Assembly: GCA_022508305.1 (NCBI GenBank)
Contig: JAFLVM010000001.1
Coordinates: 623,347 to 687,346 of the forward strand
DNA: 64,000 bases
Direction: 5' to 3'
From: Clostridiales bacterium
Lineage (GTDB): Bacteria > Bacillota > Clostridia > Christensenellales > CAG-314
The notes under the pieces: model-generated
What the model saw: only the letters and a program-made list of their open reading frames with translations
What the model was told of the DNA's origin: nothing
Database searches by the model: none
Position numbers and translations under genes: made by a program
In this document: positions 5,628 to 41,463 of the stretch, one piece after another
Position numbering within the stretch: the first letter of the stretch is position 1
How the letters are laid out: the number at the start of each line of letters is the position of its first letter

Positions 5628-5719
5628 TGGCGGAGAAAGAGGGATTTGAACCCTCGCTACGCTAACCACGTACTACACCCTTAGCAGGGGCGCCCCTTCG
5701 GCCACTTGGGTATTTCTCC
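5628..5719 (-). tRNA. tRNA-Ser(GCT)
   Basis: A 92-nt tRNA with the long class II variable arm expected for serine. The acceptor stem starts GGAGAAA and closes with TTTCTCC, discriminator G and encoded CCA. The anticodon loop is CTGCTAA, giving anticodon GCT (codons AGC/AGU). The T arm is GAGGG-TTCAAAT-CCCTC. It has its own promoter and terminator. Confidence 0.97.
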
Positions 5720-5757
5720 AAATTCCGATTGCAAATTGCTATTTTGTTTGCGTGATT

Positions 5758-5786
5758 ATTTTACCACAAACTAAACCGCAAGTAAA
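5758..5786 (-). promoter_or_regulatory. Promoter of tRNA-Ser
   Basis: On the minus strand: -35 TTTACT, 17-bp spacer, -10 TAAAAT, about 40 bp before the mature 5' end. Confidence 0.6.
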
Positions 5787-5845
5787 GTTATTTTGCCAAT
5801 TTAATTGCAAGTTTTGTCAAATGGTTAACAACTGCAGCTTTTTAA

Positions 5846-5874
5846 TTGATTTTTACTAAACAATGATGTATAAT
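5846..5874 (+). promoter_or_regulatory. Promoter of tRNA-Ala
   Basis: -35 TTGATT, 17-bp spacer, consensus -10 TATAAT, 13 bp before the mature tRNA. Confidence 0.75.
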
Positions 5875-5887
5875 ATACCTAAATTGT

Positions 5888-5963
5888 GGGGGTATGGCTC
5901 AGTTGGTAGAGCGATGCGTTCGCAACGCATAGGTCACGAGTTCGAATCTCGTTATCTCCACCA
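5888..5963 (+). tRNA. tRNA-Ala(CGC)
   Basis: A 76-nt tRNA with encoded CCA. The anticodon stem ATGCG/CGCAT encloses loop TTCGCAA, so the anticodon is CGC, reading codon GCG. The acceptor stem GGGGGTA/TATCTCC contains the G3:U70 pair that identifies alanine tRNAs. The T arm is ACGAG-TTCGAAT-CTCGT. Confidence 0.97.
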
Positions 5964-7505: not shown

Positions 7506-8033
7506 TTAGTAAACGTAAGTAGTTACTATTTGTACTGCGTTGCCGTTTGCGCTGGTGTAGGTTACCGTAATTGAAACGACATGTTCGCCCTCTGCAACAA
7601 TCTCTATCCTTGCGTCGCCCTTCACGTCGGACGATTGGATTCCGAACATCTCGTCGAGATTTACTCTCGAAACTCTTGCTTTCAAGACTGTTTTCTCTTC
7701 CGTTACTTCCGTCAACAAAGCTCTTGTAATATTTACCGTGGGACCACCTGTAATATCCTTGGTTTCCGTTGTGGTCGTGTACAGCTCATCGGCATCGGAC
7801 GAGTTAATCGTCTTGCGTTCGATTGTAACCTTGCCTGCAGCAAAGTCATAATTACGCGTTTCCTTGGCGAGCTCGCTGTCGCCATTCTTGACGGTAATAA
7901 CTTGTGTAGCACTCTTGGCGTCAGATATACTGTCGCAAAGACTCAATATATTTTTTTGGCGCGCGCAGGCGGAACACAGTAGCGCTACAGCAATCAAAAC
8001 CGCAAATACTGCAAAAATTAACTTCTTTTTCAT
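7506..8033 (-). CDS. Lipoprotein paired with the M60 surface protein
   Basis: A 175-residue predicted lipoprotein: signal peptide MKKKLIFAVFAVLIAVALL and a lipidation Cys in CSACARQ (or the preceding Cys). A single beta-rich domain follows. Its end, VVSITVTYTSANGNAVQI, resembles that of the lipoprotein at 38993-39589 (VQIVMTYVSEGGAEVGI), so the two are probable paralogues. Its ATG overlaps the stop of the 1865-residue gene by 4 bp, i.e. the two are translationally coupled. The alternating polar/hydrophobic strands recall LolA/LppX-like folds, but that is only a guess. Function unknown; its fixed position suggests it acts on or with the surface protein. Confidence 0.85.
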   Translation of the reverse strand: MKKKLIFAVFAVLIAVALLCSACARQKNILSLCDSISDAKSATQVITVKNGDSELAKETRNYDFAAGKVTIERKTINSSDADELYTTTTETKDITGGPTVNITRALLTEVTEEKTVLKARVSRVNLDEMFGIQSSDVKGDARIEIVAEGEHVVSITVTYTSANGNAVQIVTTYVY

Positions 8034-11000
8034 CCTAAAATCCTCCTTTTGAGAATTTCAACTACGGCAAGAGCCGCAAGCGCGACAGAGCTAACAATCT
8101 TTGCGGTAAGTGACTCGCCCACCCTTTCGGCAACCGCAAGGTCGCTAACAGCTTGCGCGGAAAGCGCGTCGAATGCCGCCTTGAGCGCGTTGTATTCGGT
8201 AAGATTCAAAGTTGCAATTTCTTCTTCCGTGTACAGCGCGAGAGTCGCCTCTACTGCCTTGATGGCGTTGAACTTAGCTTGCAATGACGTTGCGTTCTTC
8301 AATGCGTCAATCTTTGCTGCAAGCGACACGGTATCTACCACCCAGCTTGCCGTGAGAACCAAGTCCTCGGCAGGCATTGTCGTAGCGGTAAACAATACGC
8401 CATTGTTCAACCATCCTGCAAACTTGTAGCCTGTCCTGCTAACTGTAGGAGGAGTGAGTTGCGCGCCAAATTCCAATTCTTGACTGCCGAGCAGCGTCTG
8501 TCCGTCGTAGTAGGTAACTGTGTGTTTTGTTTGACGGGATAACATTGCAACCAGTCTCATATTGGTCGTAACAGTCACCTGCTGCCCCGGGGTGTATTCT
8601 ATGTCGCCCAGTTTCCAACCCACAAGCACATACCCGTCTTCCAGTTGAATGTTGCTGATGAGAGTTATGCTTGCGCCGTACTCAACGGTGACACTGCTGA
8701 CGAGCTGACTACTATTGTAGTAAACAACCGTCAACTTGATTTTTTCAATACTTGCAACAAACGTCATTGCCTTGGTGACGGATACGGTTTCACCCACCGC
8801 GTAGAGCACGTCGTCGGCGTACCAACCCAAAAATTCATACCCTTGTTCGATTTGAGACAAGGACGGCATGGTGATTGTTCCATCGTAATCCACGTACGTG
8901 ACGGCAACCAAGTCACCATCAACGCGGAACTCCACTCTTAGCGAGCCTTCCTTGACGGGCAATATTACGATATCCTCGGTAACGTCGATTTCATCACCCA
9001 CGTCGTAATAACTGCCGTTGTACTCCCACTTGATGATATTTCCGTCAACCGCACTTGACGAGGACGGGAACTTGAATTTTTCGCCTGGAGTAACGTAGAT
9101 AATTTCTTCGCTGTCGCCGTAGCTAACCGTTACTTTGAACTTTTGTCCCACTACCACTTGAATGACCGTCATGTCGTCAATAGTAATGGAATCTCCCACG
9201 CGATAAGTGACGCCGTTAACAACAAACGAGATAATATACTTGTCCGGGTATTTAGTTTCAAAGTCATCTGCCGTGAAGGTGTAGGTGGAACCGTTTTCAA
9301 CAGTAAAGGATTCGGTACCTATCTCGCCGTAATCAAGAGTTACTTTGACGCGATTGGGCACGTAGCAAATGGTATTTCCTCTTATCTCGATGCGTCCCTT
9401 GCTCGCGTCCAAATTTAAGAAGGATATATCCATAGCCGTCAGCGCATCTTGTGGGATTTCGAAATCTGCAGTGAAAATTGCCTTTACGCAATCGAAGTCG
9501 TAGCTGTCCAGCGTGATATGGAAAGAGGTGTAGGTTGGATACTTCATAGTGCCCCAATCTATCGGCCCGTAAAACGGTTGTACAGTAAACATGGCCGTAG
9601 TCAGGTGGACGGTAGCGTCTTGCGACAAGAAAATATCTCTCGTTAATTCCGCATCAAGGTTGTGATCACCGCCGGTAGGGGTAGCAGTTCCTGCAATAAC
9701 GACGTTTCCGCTGTTGACGTAAAGAGAATACTTCATTTCATCTTCCGTCGGCATTTTTTCAAAAGTTACGTAATTGAAGAAGAAGCTGATGCTCAACAGG
9801 TGCAAATTGCCACTTACCATATACAGTTCGTAACCTATTGGAGCGGAGTCGTTGTACAATTGAGGCTTACCGCTAATGCTTGTCGAAGTAAATTTCAACT
9901 CACCACGGTCATCTCCCTTGTAATAAATACCGCCGCCAAACTGTGATGCCGTATTCAACGTGAGCATAACATCGTCTTTGAGCCAAGCGCTACCTTCCAG
10001 ATACATTGCGCCACCGTAGTTGGCATTGTTGTATCTTAGCGTTACATTTTGCATTGTTGTTAATTGTGCTCCGCCAATCAATGCAATAGCCCCGCCGAAT
10101 TGCGCTGTATTGTGCTCCATCATCATGCGCTTAAGATAGGACGTATTCTCATCTCCAATAATTTGCTTAATCGTTCCCTCGCATGCGATAGCCCCACCGT
10201 AAACTGAGGCAGTATTGTTCGATAGCGTTGAGAAACTGTTTATTGACACCGACGAGGTAGCGTCGATAAATATTCCACCGCCGTTGTTGTCTGCACGGTT
10301 TTGAGTGAGCGTTACAGCTACAACGTTCACAGTGGACGCATCCGCGGCAAATATACCGCCACCGTCTACCGCCGAGCAAGCCGTTATAGTAGAACTACTT
10401 TGCGCTGTTAAAGTAGCGCCTGCCAAGTAAATTCCACCGCCGTAATTGGCATTACAATCGATTATTGTTGTTCCGTTCAATGTCACGCTTGCGCAGCTTT
10501 GAACGTATATTGCGCCGCCGTTGCTAATCGACTGTCCGCTATTTACCTGAGCGCTGCAATTAGATATTGTTGTTGAGCTGATTGTCACTTTCTTGTTTCC
10601 ACAATCCACCAAACATATTGCGCCGCCGCGCGCATACCCAGACGCGTTGCCTTCCTCCGCGTGACAGTTGTCAAACTTACACGATGTGATGGTCGCCGTT
10701 GTGGAGTTTGCATAGATAGCGCCGCCGTCTGACGCTATGCAATTTACAAATTCGCAGTTTTCCACCGTCAAATTGCCATTGCGTGTAGCAATCGCTCCGC
10801 CTTCGCCACTCGACTTACAATTCGTAAATTGGACGTAGCTACATTTGATGGTTGCTCCGTTGCCGTTTACCAGCGGTCCGCCGCCGAACGAATCGCCATC
10901 CAAAATCAGCTTGCGGGCATCGCTTCCCTGCAGGGTAAAGCTTACGCCGCTACGCACGTCAAACAACACGCCGTTGCCACCCCTGGTAATGGTAATATCC

Positions 11001-13627
11001 CTATTAACACTGTCCGCAATGGCAATAGTCACGTTTACCGTAACCGGTAAGTTAATCTCCCATATATCGTCCAACAGATAAATGGTATCACCTGCAACAG
11101 CGGCATACAACGCCTGCTGCAGACTGCCGTAGCTTAATTGGTTAATTCTGCAAACGGGATTGTCCGTGCTTACTTCAGCTGCAACTGCGTCGCTTTGCGA
11201 AGAGCAATCTAACCTTTTGTCATAGGCAACTATTCTATATGACGGTACGTAACCGCTTTCATATGAGGTTGAGTCAATGAAGCTGTCTCCCTCTGTAAAG
11301 CCTATGACCTTGTAACCGTCATTGGCATTACCTTGAAGGATTTCATAGCCGTAATGCGCGCTGTTAGTTGACGTAGGCAAAATAATCTTGTATCCGCCAC
11401 CAACCTTGACAACGGAGCTTATGGACGGTTTGTAGGCGTCGGTGTACAGTCCTGCACCGCCATTGACTACGTATTTGTACGTGTTGTTGTTTGCGTACCA
11501 TATTTTGTACTGCTTGGCGTCGGTGAATTTGTTATCTAATTTCGCCTGCGCCATAACAGTTTTGTAAGTGTTGGAGGTGTTTGCGTATTTGAAAGGTTGA
11601 TCCGAACCGAAGAAATACCCCCAGCGCTCAAAGTAGTACGACATATCTATGCCCGTTGCAAGCGAGGAAAAGTACGCCATTAGTTCGGTGTTGGCAAGCC
11701 CCTTCCTGTCCTCATACCTGTAGAAGTTTTCAAACTTCGCCCAATAGCCGGGCATAACACACTCGATTTCCCACCAGAAGTCAAAGCAGCCCTTGTGACC
11801 CGACCAGAAATTGGTTGTGTCCGCGAGGTCGCTGGTCAACGTGTTCCTTATCATGTCAAAACTGCCATGATTGCCGGTGTTGTGTGTGGTTTCGTAATAT
11901 TTTGCTATGACGTTATTGGTAGTTTCGGATAGTCTTCGGTCAGACAAATCAAACAAATGCCCGACTTCGTGAGGAATACCCCAACCAAACGTTGTGGATC
12001 GTACAGCTTCGGGAAGGAAGTCTACCAAGCCTATAATTTCCGGGAAGGCATAAGCCGCATACATGCCCATCGCTTGAACGTATCTGACGTTGAAATTTAG
12101 GTGTTGAACCCTTTCGTCATAGCGATATCCGTCGGGATTGAGCGCAACGCCTTCGAAGGTAAGAATATCCTCCACCATAGAGTCCCAAGTTTTCAAAACT
12201 TCCATAGGATCTCTCGTAGCGTAAGCGTCGTTCGCCGAGGATGCGGGAATTGTCAAGATTGCGTGGTTAGCGACAAGCTCGGTTACGTCGGCATAGTAAT
12301 TGGGGTTGGATTTTACAAGCGCTCTGTATTCCGCCAATTTCGCTCTGTATTCCGCAACGTCGGTCTCGTACGTCATCAATGGAAACTCATAGCCACCGTC
12401 GATGTACACCTTGACTCCACCCGGTTGCTGATCGGGCGTGTAGGGATTAGTGATGTAGATAGCGCCACCCGAAACGGTAGACCGATTGTACGTGAAATCG
12501 GAATTGGCACGTACGAAATCGGGTATGGTGATAACGTTTCTTCCTCTGGTAAGAGAATAGCTTTGTTGATAGTTGTAGCAATAGTTGAGATACTGCGCCA
12601 CGTCTATTCCCGGAAGGGGTACTCCATCGGGAGCATCTACCCAGACGGTTATCGTTTGTCCTGCGTTTTGATAAATTCCCGTCGGTTGCTTGTTCGTGCC
12701 GGCGTAATCCATCTTGAGAGTGCGTCTGGCGTAGTTAATTATATTTCCGTACTGAGTTATCTTTCTTAGGTTGGTATCATTCGTGGCAAATTCGCGATTG
12801 GAATCGTACTGCGCCGTTCCTTCCATCAACGCCAGCGCGCGCTCTATTCTCGGACCGAATTCGGTGTCGTAATTGATGTATCCGCTGAGTTGCGTCTTCA
12901 TGTCGTGTAGCATGTCGATGTTTTTGTATTCCGACTTGAGCTGCGTCCATCTGTAGTCCTCAAACAAATCGCCTGCCTTGGCTGCGTACTGGTTTTCCGG
13001 TTGCAAAAACATAAGTTCCGCCGCAGTTGCAACGCTTAACGTACCCGAAACGCTGTTGTTGACAACCGACACGTCGGCAAATTCGAACCTGATTCTGTCC
13101 GTAGTTACGGGGTGATTGAAAGTGAACATCACTATGCCCGTCGGAACATCCCACGTTTCGAGGAGCGTACTTTCGCTGTAATTGTTTCCCCAGGACAGTC
13201 TCAAATACGTGGGAAAACCGCTCGCTTTGCCGTCGTAAGATACGCACTTGTAGATGATTCTGTCCACTGTTGTAGTCTTGTTAAATACGGCGTTGATTTG
13301 AACTGATGAGTTGTAGTTGATTGTCTTTGTTCCCACAAATGCCGTGTCGAAATTTCCGTCAAACGCCCTGTCCAACGCGTAACCGGGGTACGCGGCGCTG
13401 GTGGACGAATAGGAAAAGTGGGTGTTTGGCTTGATTTGGTACAGGTTGAGGTAGTCCCATTGCAAATACTCTTCGTTTACGCTTGTACACGTAACGGACT
13501 CGCCCCACGCGTAAACTTTGTACGTATCTGTTTGGATATTTACCGTAAGCCCCAACACGGCAAGTAACAATATCAAACCGAGACACACAATTAACATTGT
13601 CTTTCTCGCTTGAAAGCTTTTTAACAT
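8030..13627 (-). CDS. Giant M60-type peptidase surface protein
   Basis: An 1865-residue secreted protein. Order of parts: signal/anchor helix (about 9-28); F5/8 type C-like sugar-binding domain (about 50-215); M60-type metallopeptidase domain (about 310-760) with zinc motif HEVGH at 553-557 and the expected downstream Glu at about 568 in LSETTNN. Then come a right-handed beta-helix region of Pmp-like GGAIY/GGGIF repeats (about 820-1240), five InlB-like repeats (about 1425-1760, e.g. GYEFLGWYADD, GYKFAGWLNN), and a C-terminal helical domain with membrane helix and KRRILG tail. M60 enzymes cut mucin-type glycoproteins, so host mucus is a likely target. The last about 95 residues match the end of the nuclease at 39595-41406. 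GAAGGAG lies 13 bp before the ATG. No LPXTG motif. Confidence 0.88.
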   Translation of the reverse strand: MLKSFQARKTMLIVCLGLILLLAVLGLTVNIQTDTYKVYAWGESVTCTSVNEEYLQWDYLNLYQIKPNTHFSYSSTSAAYPGYALDRAFDGNFDTAFVGTKTINYNSSVQINAVFNKTTTVDRIIYKCVSYDGKASGFPTYLRLSWGNNYSESTLLETWDVPTGIVMFTFNHPVTTDRIRFEFADVSVVNNSVSGTLSVATAAELMFLQPENQYAAKAGDLFEDYRWTQLKSEYKNIDMLHDMKTQLSGYINYDTEFGPRIERALALMEGTAQYDSNREFATNDTNLRKITQYGNIINYARRTLKMDYAGTNKQPTGIYQNAGQTITVWVDAPDGVPLPGIDVAQYLNYCYNYQQSYSLTRGRNVITIPDFVRANSDFTYNRSTVSGGAIYITNPYTPDQQPGGVKVYIDGGYEFPLMTYETDVAEYRAKLAEYRALVKSNPNYYADVTELVANHAILTIPASSANDAYATRDPMEVLKTWDSMVEDILTFEGVALNPDGYRYDERVQHLNFNVRYVQAMGMYAAYAFPEIIGLVDFLPEAVRSTTFGWGIPHEVGHLFDLSDRRLSETTNNVIAKYYETTHNTGNHGSFDMIRNTLTSDLADTTNFWSGHKGCFDFWWEIECVMPGYWAKFENFYRYEDRKGLANTELMAYFSSLATGIDMSYYFERWGYFFGSDQPFKYANTSNTYKTVMAQAKLDNKFTDAKQYKIWYANNNTYKYVVNGGAGLYTDAYKPSISSVVKVGGGYKIILPTSTNSAHYGYEILQGNANDGYKVIGFTEGDSFIDSTSYESGYVPSYRIVAYDKRLDCSSQSDAVAAEVSTDNPVCRINQLSYGSLQQALYAAVAGDTIYLLDDIWEINLPVTVNVTIAIADSVNRDITITRGGNGVLFDVRSGVSFTLQGSDARKLILDGDSFGGGPLVNGNGATIKCSYVQFTNCKSSGEGGAIATRNGNLTVENCEFVNCIASDGGAIYANSTTATITSCKFDNCHAEEGNASGYARGGAICLVDCGNKKVTISSTTISNCSAQVNSGQSISNGGAIYVQSCASVTLNGTTIIDCNANYGGGIYLAGATLTAQSSSTITACSAVDGGGIFAADASTVNVVAVTLTQNRADNNGGGIFIDATSSVSINSFSTLSNNTASVYGGAIACEGTIKQIIGDENTSYLKRMMMEHNTAQFGGAIALIGGAQLTTMQNVTLRYNNANYGGAMYLEGSAWLKDDVMLTLNTASQFGGGIYYKGDDRGELKFTSTSISGKPQLYNDSAPIGYELYMVSGNLHLLSISFFFNYVTFEKMPTEDEMKYSLYVNSGNVVIAGTATPTGGDHNLDAELTRDIFLSQDATVHLTTAMFTVQPFYGPIDWGTMKYPTYTSFHITLDSYDFDCVKAIFTADFEIPQDALTAMDISFLNLDASKGRIEIRGNTICYVPNRVKVTLDYGEIGTESFTVENGSTYTFTADDFETKYPDKYIISFVVNGVTYRVGDSITIDDMTVIQVVVGQKFKVTVSYGDSEEIIYVTPGEKFKFPSSSSAVDGNIIKWEYNGSYYDVGDEIDVTEDIVILPVKEGSLRVEFRVDGDLVAVTYVDYDGTITMPSLSQIEQGYEFLGWYADDVLYAVGETVSVTKAMTFVASIEKIKLTVVYYNSSQLVSSVTVEYGASITLISNIQLEDGYVLVGWKLGDIEYTPGQQVTVTTNMRLVAMLSRQTKHTVTYYDGQTLLGSQELEFGAQLTPPTVSRTGYKFAGWLNNGVLFTATTMPAEDLVLTASWVVDTVSLAAKIDALKNATSLQAKFNAIKAVEATLALYTEEEIATLNLTEYNALKAAFDALSAQAVSDLAVAERVGESLTAKIVSSVALAALAVVEILKRRILG

Positions 13628-39594: not shown

Positions 39595-41406
39595 TTACCT
39601 CCCCACCGTACGCTTGATTACGATTAGCACCAACGCCAAAAACGACATTGACACTGCCTTTGCGATTGCTTGCGATGCAACGTTGGTCGCCTCTTGAAAT
39701 TCTTGGTTAATCTTGCCAACTTCTTCGTTGTAAGCGGCAATTGCTTGGTCTAACGTTGCTTTGTCCGCCGCGTGAGCAGCTTTGTCGCTTTGTGACATCT
39801 GATTGTAAGCGCTTATCGCCTCGGCAATTGCTTCGTAACGTTCCTGTAACGTATTTGCATTGTTTAGCGCTTGCATTTTTTCATTGAATATGCCTTCCAT
39901 GTCCGATTCTTCAACGACGGTGACGGAAAGAGTAGCCTTAATTGACGAGTTTTCCCTACTCGTCGCGGTAATCGTCGCGTTGCCTTTTCCCACTGCCCTA
40001 ACTACGCCGTTAGTGACGGTTGCAACAGCCGAGTTGCTCGTAGACCAGTTAACGCTGTTGTCCGCGCCCATAGGAGTTGCCGTGACCGTTACCGTTTGCG
40101 TCGCGCCTACTGCAAGAGTAAGGGAACTGTGCGAAAGAGTAATTCCCGTAAGCGTAGGTGGCAATTCCTGTTCAGCCACCGTAACAGTAAGCGAAGCCTT
40201 TATGTTTGTGTTGACGGTACTCGTTGCCGTAATTGTCGCCGTACCTGCCTTGACCGCCTTGACCGTTCCGTTAGTTACCGTCGCAACGCTCGAGTTGCTT
40301 GTAGACCAAGTTACGCTGTTGCTTGCCGTAGACGGAACAGCCGTAACGGTGACAGTTGATGATTGTCCCACTTCAAGGCTGAGCGAACTATGTGAGAGTG
40401 TCAAACCTGTAAGCGTAGGAGTGTCGCCGCCGCCGTTGTCGTTGAGATAGCTACCGTACTGAGCTACGACGTTTTTAAGCGAGTTGTTGTAACTGTTACC
40501 GTCGTTGCAGTAAATCATCTCGGCGAATTCGGGGTGATCAATGAAGGGATTGCGGTTGCCTTGAACAGTTTCAACCAAGCTGTTACGGCGGATTTCCTCC
40601 TCTGTCGGCGGTTCTTGAAGGTGCCATTTCAACAAAATATCAACGTTGCTCATCACCTTTGCCGAGCCGCTGCCAAGAGTGAAGGAAAGATCGCTCGTTT
40701 TACCCCAACGCGTTTGCACGTAAAAGAGAATACGCGCCGTTGCTCCGCGGTAGCCTGCGGCGGGATAGAAATACTTAACGCCGCTTACCGTAGCTTGGTA
40801 GCACCACGAATCGAGGTCGTCCGTACCGTAGTTGGAGTAGGTTCCGCTCTGATACACTCTGTTGGCAGTAGTTTTCGGCACTTCGCCGAAATGGTTGTTG
40901 CTGCGGGTATTGTTGAGACCGGTATTCAGCGGACGAACGTGGTGAGCGTCGCTACCTGCTTGCGATTTCTCGGGGAAAGCTGCGCCACCCATCTTGGGCC
41001 AAACGTGCTCGCGGTTTGTAGGATAATTACCGCTGTCCATTGCGCCTGTGTAAGGAATGGAGTCCCCTGTGTAAAACCAAATAACGTTGCCGCTTACGTT
41101 AGGGTCAACGTCCGTGATCTTGTACTTAGACTTCAAATCGTCGTATGAAATTTGCGTCTTGTGCGTATTGGTTATCAACGCCGCCAAATCATCGTAAAAC
41201 GAACTGCCCGTTTGATTGGTGTTGAGATTTTTGTAGTAAGTGCCGTTGTACGGATTGTCCCAAGTGCTTGCCGCGCTGATAGTTGCAACGGATGCGCTTG
41301 CAACGTTGGCGTTGTCGCTTGTGTACAGCGGAAATACGCACATACAAACAAACAGGAATATTAACGCGAATGCAAGTGATATTCCAATTTTTCTGCCTTT
41401 TGTCAT
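39595..41406 (-). CDS. Secreted endonuclease I-type nuclease with Ig-like domains
   Basis: A 603-residue exported protein. Signal peptide/anchor (about 5-28); endonuclease I (EndA/NucM) domain (about 50-320) with catalytic His in NREHVWPKMGG (His about 134), followed by DAHHVRPLN and NNTRSNNHFG; two Big_2-like Ig domains (LTLSHSSLSLEVGQSSTVTV; ITLSHSSLTLAVGATQTVTV); then the helical C-terminal domain with membrane helix and KRTVGR tail shared with the M60 protein. It probably degrades extracellular DNA or RNA at the cell surface. The ATG was chosen because GAGGAG lies 7 bp before it; a TTG five codons upstream overlaps that site. Confidence 0.9.
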   Translation of the reverse strand: MTKGRKIGISLAFALIFLFVCMCVFPLYTSDNANVASASVATISAASTWDNPYNGTYYKNLNTNQTGSSFYDDLAALITNTHKTQISYDDLKSKYKITDVDPNVSGNVIWFYTGDSIPYTGAMDSGNYPTNREHVWPKMGGAAFPEKSQAGSDAHHVRPLNTGLNNTRSNNHFGEVPKTTANRVYQSGTYSNYGTDDLDSWCYQATVSGVKYFYPAAGYRGATARILFYVQTRWGKTSDLSFTLGSGSAKVMSNVDILLKWHLQEPPTEEEIRRNSLVETVQGNRNPFIDHPEFAEMIYCNDGNSYNNSLKNVVAQYGSYLNDNGGGDTPTLTGLTLSHSSLSLEVGQSSTVTVTAVPSTASNSVTWSTSNSSVATVTNGTVKAVKAGTATITATSTVNTNIKASLTVTVAEQELPPTLTGITLSHSSLTLAVGATQTVTVTATPMGADNSVNWSTSNSAVATVTNGVVRAVGKGNATITATSRENSSIKATLSVTVVEESDMEGIFNEKMQALNNANTLQERYEAIAEAISAYNQMSQSDKAAHAADKATLDQAIAAYNEEVGKINQEFQEATNVASQAIAKAVSMSFLALVLIVIKRTVGR

Positions 41407-41463
41407 GGAGTGTCTCCTCAAAATTCAATGCCTCGTAGCATTGACTAATAGCGATTACTGTTT

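Follow-up and report, generated by a model that had tools for sequence, protein, structure and literature searches.

Organization of the two loci

Two loci built alike were found in the 64,000-nucleotide stretch of contig JAFLVM010000001.1 from Clostridiales bacterium that was analysed here (hereafter, the window). Each encodes a protein in which a head is followed by a helical-looking stretch, a membrane helix and a short basic end, the last three forming its tail, and each has a lipoprotein gene behind it (Table 1). The head carries a Peptidase M60 domain at one locus (51.3 bits against a Pfam cut-off of 25.8, with the HExxH motif present as HEVGH) and an Endonuclease I (EndA) domain at the other (112 bits against a cut-off of 25). 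The reading of open reading frames (ORFs) bore out the genes, coordinates and four-base overlap at the M60 locus that an earlier, sequence-only reading had given; the overlapping bases are ATGA. The nuclease may start at a TTG (41421) or at the first ATG (41406), the latter being more likely.

At both loci, the final codons of the tail contain the ribosome-binding site of the lipoprotein gene (AGGAGG for M60 and GGGAGG for the nuclease). Because of this embedding, the likeness of the final residues, KRRILG and KRTVGR, which are present as the sequence-only reading had listed them among the shared tail features, is partly attributed to overprinting by this site rather than to protein function. 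The host genome assembly (1.47 Mb in 46 contigs, 94.5% complete) contains two strong lipoprotein-profile matches, both inside the window. Single-sequence tail searches found no third tail in this genome, and the candidate L004 (E 0.04) was rejected as a weak match within an unrelated-looking ORF of 195 amino acids (aa).

Table 1. Coding features of the two loci, in window coordinates.
Feature	Position	Strand	Content or basis
M60 surface protein, 1865 aa	8030..13627	(-)	Signal peptide, M60 peptidase, repeats, three List_Bact_rpt stretches, tail
Peptidase M60 domain, residues 443-670	11618..12301	(-)	Pfam; HEVGH at 11957-11971
M60-protein C-terminal tail	8033..8332	(-)	Helical stretch (putative hairpin), membrane helix, KRRILG end
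M60-partner lipoprotein, 175 aa, lipobox CSAC	7506..8033	(-)	Start overlaps M60 stop
EndA-type nuclease	39595..41421	(-)	Endonuclease_1, 2 Big_2, tail
Endonuclease_1 domain, residues 71-298	40528..41211	(-)	Pfam
Nuclease C-terminal tail	39598..39897	(-)	Profile search, hhalign
Nuclease-partner lipoprotein, 198 aa	38993..39589	(-)	Begins 5 nucleotides (nt) past nuclease stop

Homology of the tails and of the lipoproteins

BLASTP of the M60 tail against the nuclease tail returned no match. Nevertheless, a hidden Markov model (HMM) built from 29 tails without that of the M60 protein matched the latter at one place, its C-terminus, with 18 bits; a later profile that included the M60 tail, and was thus not independent, gave 53 bits. 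When M60-type tails (three sequences) and EndA-type tails were kept separate, hhalign aligned them over 94 columns at 97% (E 1.1e-10). The EndA-type tails (type T3) and the giant-type tails (type T1) likewise aligned at 97% (E 1e-10), and for this T3–T1 comparison only, controls were run with T1 reversed (one) or column-shuffled (five), all six of which remained below 1%. By profile, therefore, the M60 and nuclease tails are homologous, in agreement with the relatedness proposed from the sequence alone.

The nuclease tail, used as a query against 41 genomes of the family, found matches in 26, namely 24 of the 25 belonging to its own genus and two from a second genus. All 29 matches, the nuclease itself included, terminate a protein, and all are directly followed by an ORF of 177–217 aa, with a lipobox in 28. 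In an alignment of 29 tails, from which L019 was left out and in which the M60 tail took its place, columns F6, A29, Y33, Y58, N59, N66 and A90 are nearly invariant. Almost all of the conserved columns fall within the helical stretch, and no short conserved motif stands where a cleavage might be expected. The layout comprises a helical stretch and mostly one membrane helix, with 0–10 residues after the helix in 83 of 88 tails. For the tail family, neither Pfam nor NCBIfam offers a model with convincing coverage; matches to helical Pfam families (TcdB_N in 9 of 29, best 1e-4; FlgK_D1; others) were scattered over 101 families and were read as helical composition.

Between the two window lipoproteins, pairwise comparison gave a weak C-terminal match (E 0.08) and a better N-terminal one that was mostly signal peptide. 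Profile comparison of the EndA and M60 types by hhalign reached 89% over 66 C-terminal columns, and here too the earlier reading, which had the two resembling each other at their C-termini, proved right. The EndA and M60 types aligned with the giant type at 97.7% and 99.1%, respectively, and the f6 type was the weakest, reaching 92% with the EndA type and 39% and 4% with the other types. Single linkage of 65 mature parts joined 64 of 65 at E<1e-4 and all 65 at 1e-2, and by these comparisons the downstream lipoproteins are one family. A lipobox pattern is present in 86 of 88 partners (62 of 65 by a slightly narrower pattern), and the other two retain an N-terminal helix that looks uncleaved.

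Scans of 65 lipoproteins against Pfam and NCBIfam yielded weak matches strewn over 45 and 87 families, respectively, and no convincing family. This assessment draws on the 25 families listed for each library, by cut-off for the first member and by the weak E-values for the others. The best E among the library matches listed was 2.5e-6, for one member, and LolA3 reached 0.0016 at best in four members. A profile search of the PDB found no solved structure close to tail or lipoprotein by sequence; the best lipoprotein match (E 0.002) was a designed helical repeat protein.

Pairing of tail and lipoprotein in related genomes

A tail profile was run against the family (E≤0.01) and, at E≤1e-5, against 396 genomes of the order, and 76 tail matches, two of them in the window, were read with their flanks, without double-counting second matches within one ORF. 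A gene of the lipoprotein family follows at -4 to +21 nt in 65 of these, so that the downstream partner foreseen by the sequence-only reading accompanies most homologous tails. As background, a lipoprotein-like gene lay behind 1 of 156 other ORFs of at least 250 aa, and this sole match belongs to one of the records from Bacillus and other named organisms that form part of the background set. These ORFs were taken from loci longer than 4 kb, and some are probably not genes; the background test demanded a lipobox, which the 65/76 test did not, although 62 of those 65 have one. Eleven tail matches are without a partner. Eight of them begin 113–958 residues from the end of the protein (G009b, G010d, G248a, G167, G248b, G248c, G298 and G272b; downstream of G167 nothing was read, as the ORF ran off the fetched stretch), and three lie at a C-terminus.

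The reverse test started from 27 further full or nearly full lipoprotein genes identified by profile, of which 23 had enough upstream DNA. All 23 are preceded, at -4 to +39 nt, by a long ORF with a tail-like C-terminus, as judged by layout and clustering, with G040 and G029, each in a cluster of its own, the least sure. The upstream DNA of L166, L169, L220 and L222 was too short for an ORF of 100 aa, and the 222 upstream bases of L222 encode a tail. The pair set, from which lipoprotein matches G363, G122:C4, G199 and G377 and the contig-end fragments of G025 and G015, truncated on their upstream side, were left out, totals 88 tail–lipoprotein pairs in 55 genomes. The two genes overlap by 1 or 4 bases in 43 of these, and the lipoprotein starts within 25 nt of the tail stop in 87. 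At E≤1e-10, the lipoprotein profile matched 2 of 391 genomes of the class, both of this order; at most eight candidates were scored per genome in the order and class scans, so absences are not firm. Lipoprotein-profile matches weaker than about E 1e-9, which among the matches listed mostly covered the signal-peptide half, were not counted.

In genome G025, six contig ends (L171, L172, L173, L174, L176 and L177) break inside the lipoprotein gene. Because the 3' parts at these ends are 93–97% identical, the module seems to have multiplied recently in this genome, with the assembly breaking within it.

Exchange of heads and matching of types

Clustering sorted the 65 heads of the first set into seven groups, all carrying the tail, so the description of two unrelated enzymes sharing it was an understatement. 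A Pfam scan of 21 of the 88 tail proteins identified EndA nuclease, M60, S8 subtilase with PA and LRR_5, InlB-type, List_Bact_rpt, beta-helix and MBG heads, and several heads with nothing over the cut-off. Tails and lipoproteins were typed by average linkage at thresholds of 0.86, 0.88 and 0.9, of which 0.88 was tabulated; two tails remained ungrouped. All 40 pairs with a T3 tail have a lipoprotein of type L2, and all 31 with a T1 tail have one of type L6; across the 88 pairs, each lipoprotein type is confined to one tail type. One head cluster of nine proteins (S8 by Pfam in four) bears T3 once, T1 four times and T4 four times, and its lipoprotein type tracks the tail: L2 with T3, L6 with T1, and L5 or L7 with T4.

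Similarity between tails and lipoproteins correlated with r 0.88, compared with 0.66 between heads and lipoproteins, and the former value stood at 0.82 with head and genome fixed. When lipoproteins were permuted between paralogues within each genome (20 genomes, 53 pairs), the mean was 0.36, and 0 of 1000 shuffles reached the observed value. The lipoprotein thus follows the tail more than the head. Several breaks were observed on the head side and none is visible between tail and lipoprotein, a contrast that alone argues for function beyond co-inheritance.

Natural fusion and loss of the tail helix

In genus g82, the C-terminal half of the lipoprotein lies inside ORFs of 1908–2107 aa, in which the putative hairpin, a first membrane helix, a Lys-rich loop, a second helix and the lipoprotein domain follow one another in one open frame. 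This arrangement was found in five of six genomes, two of the five being nearly identical, and in the sixth it is interrupted by unread bases. The second helix still resembles a lipoprotein signal peptide, with a lipobox-like Cys (L207-L211). Judging from the open frame, the fusion would be made as one chain, and the order of its helices would place the lipoprotein domain on the outer side of the membrane together with the hairpin.

A second variation occurs in family f15, where five members of the EndA cluster stop behind the hairpin without a membrane helix and keep a lipobox-bearing partner. Maximal hydropathy is 0.5–1.1 in these five tails and at least 1.6 in the other 83; the one helix-less protein that was scanned has Endonuclease_1 by Pfam. 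Since the helix was lost with the partner retained, the presumed hairpin and the lipoprotein are the constant elements and the tail's own membrane helix is dispensable. The common rule is a predicted hairpin beside a small domain held at the membrane.

Distribution of sortase

No sortase (PF04203) was found in the host genome at its 94.5% completeness and no LPXTG motif occurs in the tail consensus, which upholds the earlier view that the LPXTG/sortase route is not used. PF04203 was detected in 1 of 41 family genomes and in 3 of 14 control genomes. The sole family sortase (G023:C119:311-817; L178) lies on a contig of 3155 bases in the largest assembly, which has 4% contamination, and is possibly foreign. 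In a survey of the 396 genomes of the order, with the module defined by the lipoprotein profile at E≤1e-10 and sortase at E≤0.001, 62 genomes have the module and 124 have sortase. Sortase is nearly absent from the former, occurring in 1 of 62 (G023) versus 123 of the 334 others, with 19.4 co-occurrences expected (p 3e-10). The pattern is compatible with the module replacing sortase in clades that lack it, and is no proof thereof.

Interpretation and alternative explanations

We consider it reasonably probable that tail and lipoprotein together form a two-subunit, sortase-free membrane anchor, with each lipoprotein docked on its own tail's hairpin. The window would then contain two copies of a modular surface-display unit consisting of a swappable secreted head, a conserved tail and a cognate lipoprotein. 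The lipoprotein would bind its tail's hairpin at the outer face of the cytoplasmic membrane, and the resulting one-to-one complex would hold the head at the membrane via the lipid and usually also via the tail's helix. The close or overlapping genes may provide matched amounts of the two proteins. The sequence-only reading had invoked a dedicated export, anchoring or release system; that it is dedicated is supported by the reciprocal pairing, the matching types and the fusion, and anchoring, through a presumed binding, is favoured by the tails that lack a helix and keep the lipoprotein. For export or release, no evidence was obtained.

Several points weigh against this explanation. Most tails own a membrane helix, and an extra lipid anchor is not obviously needed. 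Docking is proposed from sequence and gene order. Tail end and lipoprotein gene are neighbouring DNA, and co-inheritance explains part of their correlation; the shared nearest neighbour favours the tail just slightly (44 versus 37 of 88), and the loose T4 tail cluster (15 pairs) is spread over five lipoprotein types. The sortase contrast is clustered by clade and, counted by family, shrinks to 1 versus 4.6 expected (p 0.005). Finally, the tail-like ends G003b (L082) and G154b (L144) run on into a longer Lys/Arg terminus, and tblastn with 88 lipoproteins found no partner at either; they may be real exceptions or altered tails. The third partnerless C-terminal match, G004x (L078), is a 232-aa ORF, probably matched by chance. 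At the end of the 694-aa ORF of L082 (G003), the hairpin shares 62% identity with that of G005b over 63 residues and the membrane end differs (..KRKKNLTK), perhaps reflecting loss of the partner along with a new anchor.

Among the alternatives, the lipoprotein could be a dedicated assembly factor that holds the emerging tail, or aids the folding or insertion of these large proteins at the translocon, and stays outside the final anchor. The translation order of head, tail and lipoprotein from overlapping genes would suit such a role, as would one partner per client and the very large size of many clients (2200–3200 aa). Yet the lipoprotein is made after its client and not before, is retained with a client of 396 aa (G166a), in five genomes follows its client within a single open frame and remains where the membrane helix is lost, so that we judge this role unlikely, if worth keeping in mind. 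We find it improbable that the tail is a sorting signal to be cut, with the lipoprotein as receptor, docking factor or release regulator of a processing enzyme encoded elsewhere. The helix followed by 0–10 residues in 83 of 88 tails resembles the tripartite tags described in PMC3237569 and PMC11980579, and the module occurs in clades mostly without sortase, but the tail alignment has no short motif where cleavage would occur. Moreover, the known tags of these two sources are served by a protease, whereas the adjacent partner here matches no enzyme family convincingly; rhomboid, exosortase and CPBP proteins were not searched.

That cassettes spread as one DNA block and their two proteins never meet would account for the close linkage and for the 93–97% identical copies at the six G025 contig ends. 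We nonetheless hold such a neutral pair to be very improbable, as the pair persists across eight families and through great divergence, no lipoprotein type is common to two tail types among the 88 pairs, and one genus has both parts in one open frame. Least credible of all appears a lipoprotein that restrains or senses its enzyme, as an inhibitor, self-protection or signalling partner: nucleases and proteases do figure among the heads, but the same lipoprotein types accompany heads showing no Pfam enzyme (InlB-type, MBG) and track the tail more than the head.

Returning to the two-subunit anchor, its extension to a general sortase-independent display system of one Clostridia order strikes us as evenly poised between right and wrong. 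In such a system, any secreted head could acquire a docking tail, each with a private lipoprotein receptor, a single cell would thereby present several heads on separate pairs, and the module would stand in for sortase where this is lacking. The data suggest a so far undescribed way to hold surface proteins without sortase; no description of the tail–lipoprotein module was found in the open-licence PMC literature, a weak negative. It would explain how large proteases, nucleases and adhesins are retained at the surface of bacteria without sortase. Two protein families for which Pfam and NCBIfam have no model are thereby named, and displayed proteins of poorly studied bacteria become recognisable by sequence alone. 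Docking can be tested directly in a laboratory strain by means of the natural fusion and the helix-less tails, and private tail–receptor pairs could serve as display parts.

Neighbouring features

A tRNA-Ser (-) and a tRNA-Ala (+) lie at window positions 5628-5963, some 1.5 kb past the end of the M60 cassette that holds the lipoprotein gene, and constitute a possible integration site. The ORF P0005 (31413-38639, (-)) encodes 2408 aa with an N-terminal helix and apparently repeated beta-rich units, and has no Pfam match at E≤0.001; its interpretation as an array of lipoprotein domains was not supported (best domain about 0 bits by HMM). ORFs that contain MPKFKI.. or MSKIKI.. starts stand behind the nuclease–lipoprotein pair in seven relatives (L008, L009, L010, L011, L013, L016 and L017), and by HMM these ORFs and P0005 are unrelated to the lipoproteins. 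A relative found by way of the nuclease is an uncultured Clostridia bacterium (L111).

Comparison with known systems

In Gram-positive bacteria, the LPXTG/sortase system handles extracellular heads borne on C-terminal tails, and this arrangement recurs here; unlike its substrates, the 29 aligned tails have no conserved LPXTG, and no sortase was found in the host genome. Generic C-terminal membrane-anchored surface proteins (L073, L075 and L153) share the helical stretch and membrane helix but differ from the window tails in their long Lys-rich cytoplasmic end and the lack of a partner lipoprotein. The PEP motif is absent from the tail consensus; exosortase was not searched. The Csc/WxL clusters of Gram-positive bacteria, according to PMC1534035, are operons of secreted proteins from four fixed families, whose products are proposed to assemble into surface complexes, and they are stated not to be present in streptococci, staphylococci and clostridia. 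Compared with them by description rather than by sequence, the heads here are swappable on a common tail.

Closer parallels come from sorting tags with a membrane-protease partner. MYXO-CTERM, as outlined in PMC11980579, is a tripartite surface-sorting tag with an invariant Cys that requires the CPBP protease myxosortase. The present tails share the tripartite layout, without a conserved Cys in the 29-tail alignment; a CPBP protease was not searched. In GlyGly-CTERM/rhombosortase, according to PMC3237569, a C-terminal homology domain is shared by otherwise unrelated surface proteins, and a membrane protease serves many targets, adjoining its target in most genomes that have a single one. The Gly/Ser motif is absent from the tail consensus, and no rhomboid search was made. 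The present system resembles GlyGly-CTERM in a tail carried by unrelated surface proteins, with a membrane helix, a basic end and a co-distributed partner. It departs from it in that the tail is a helical domain of about 100 residues rather than a short motif, and the partner is a lipoprotein, one per target, encoded beside nearly every target.

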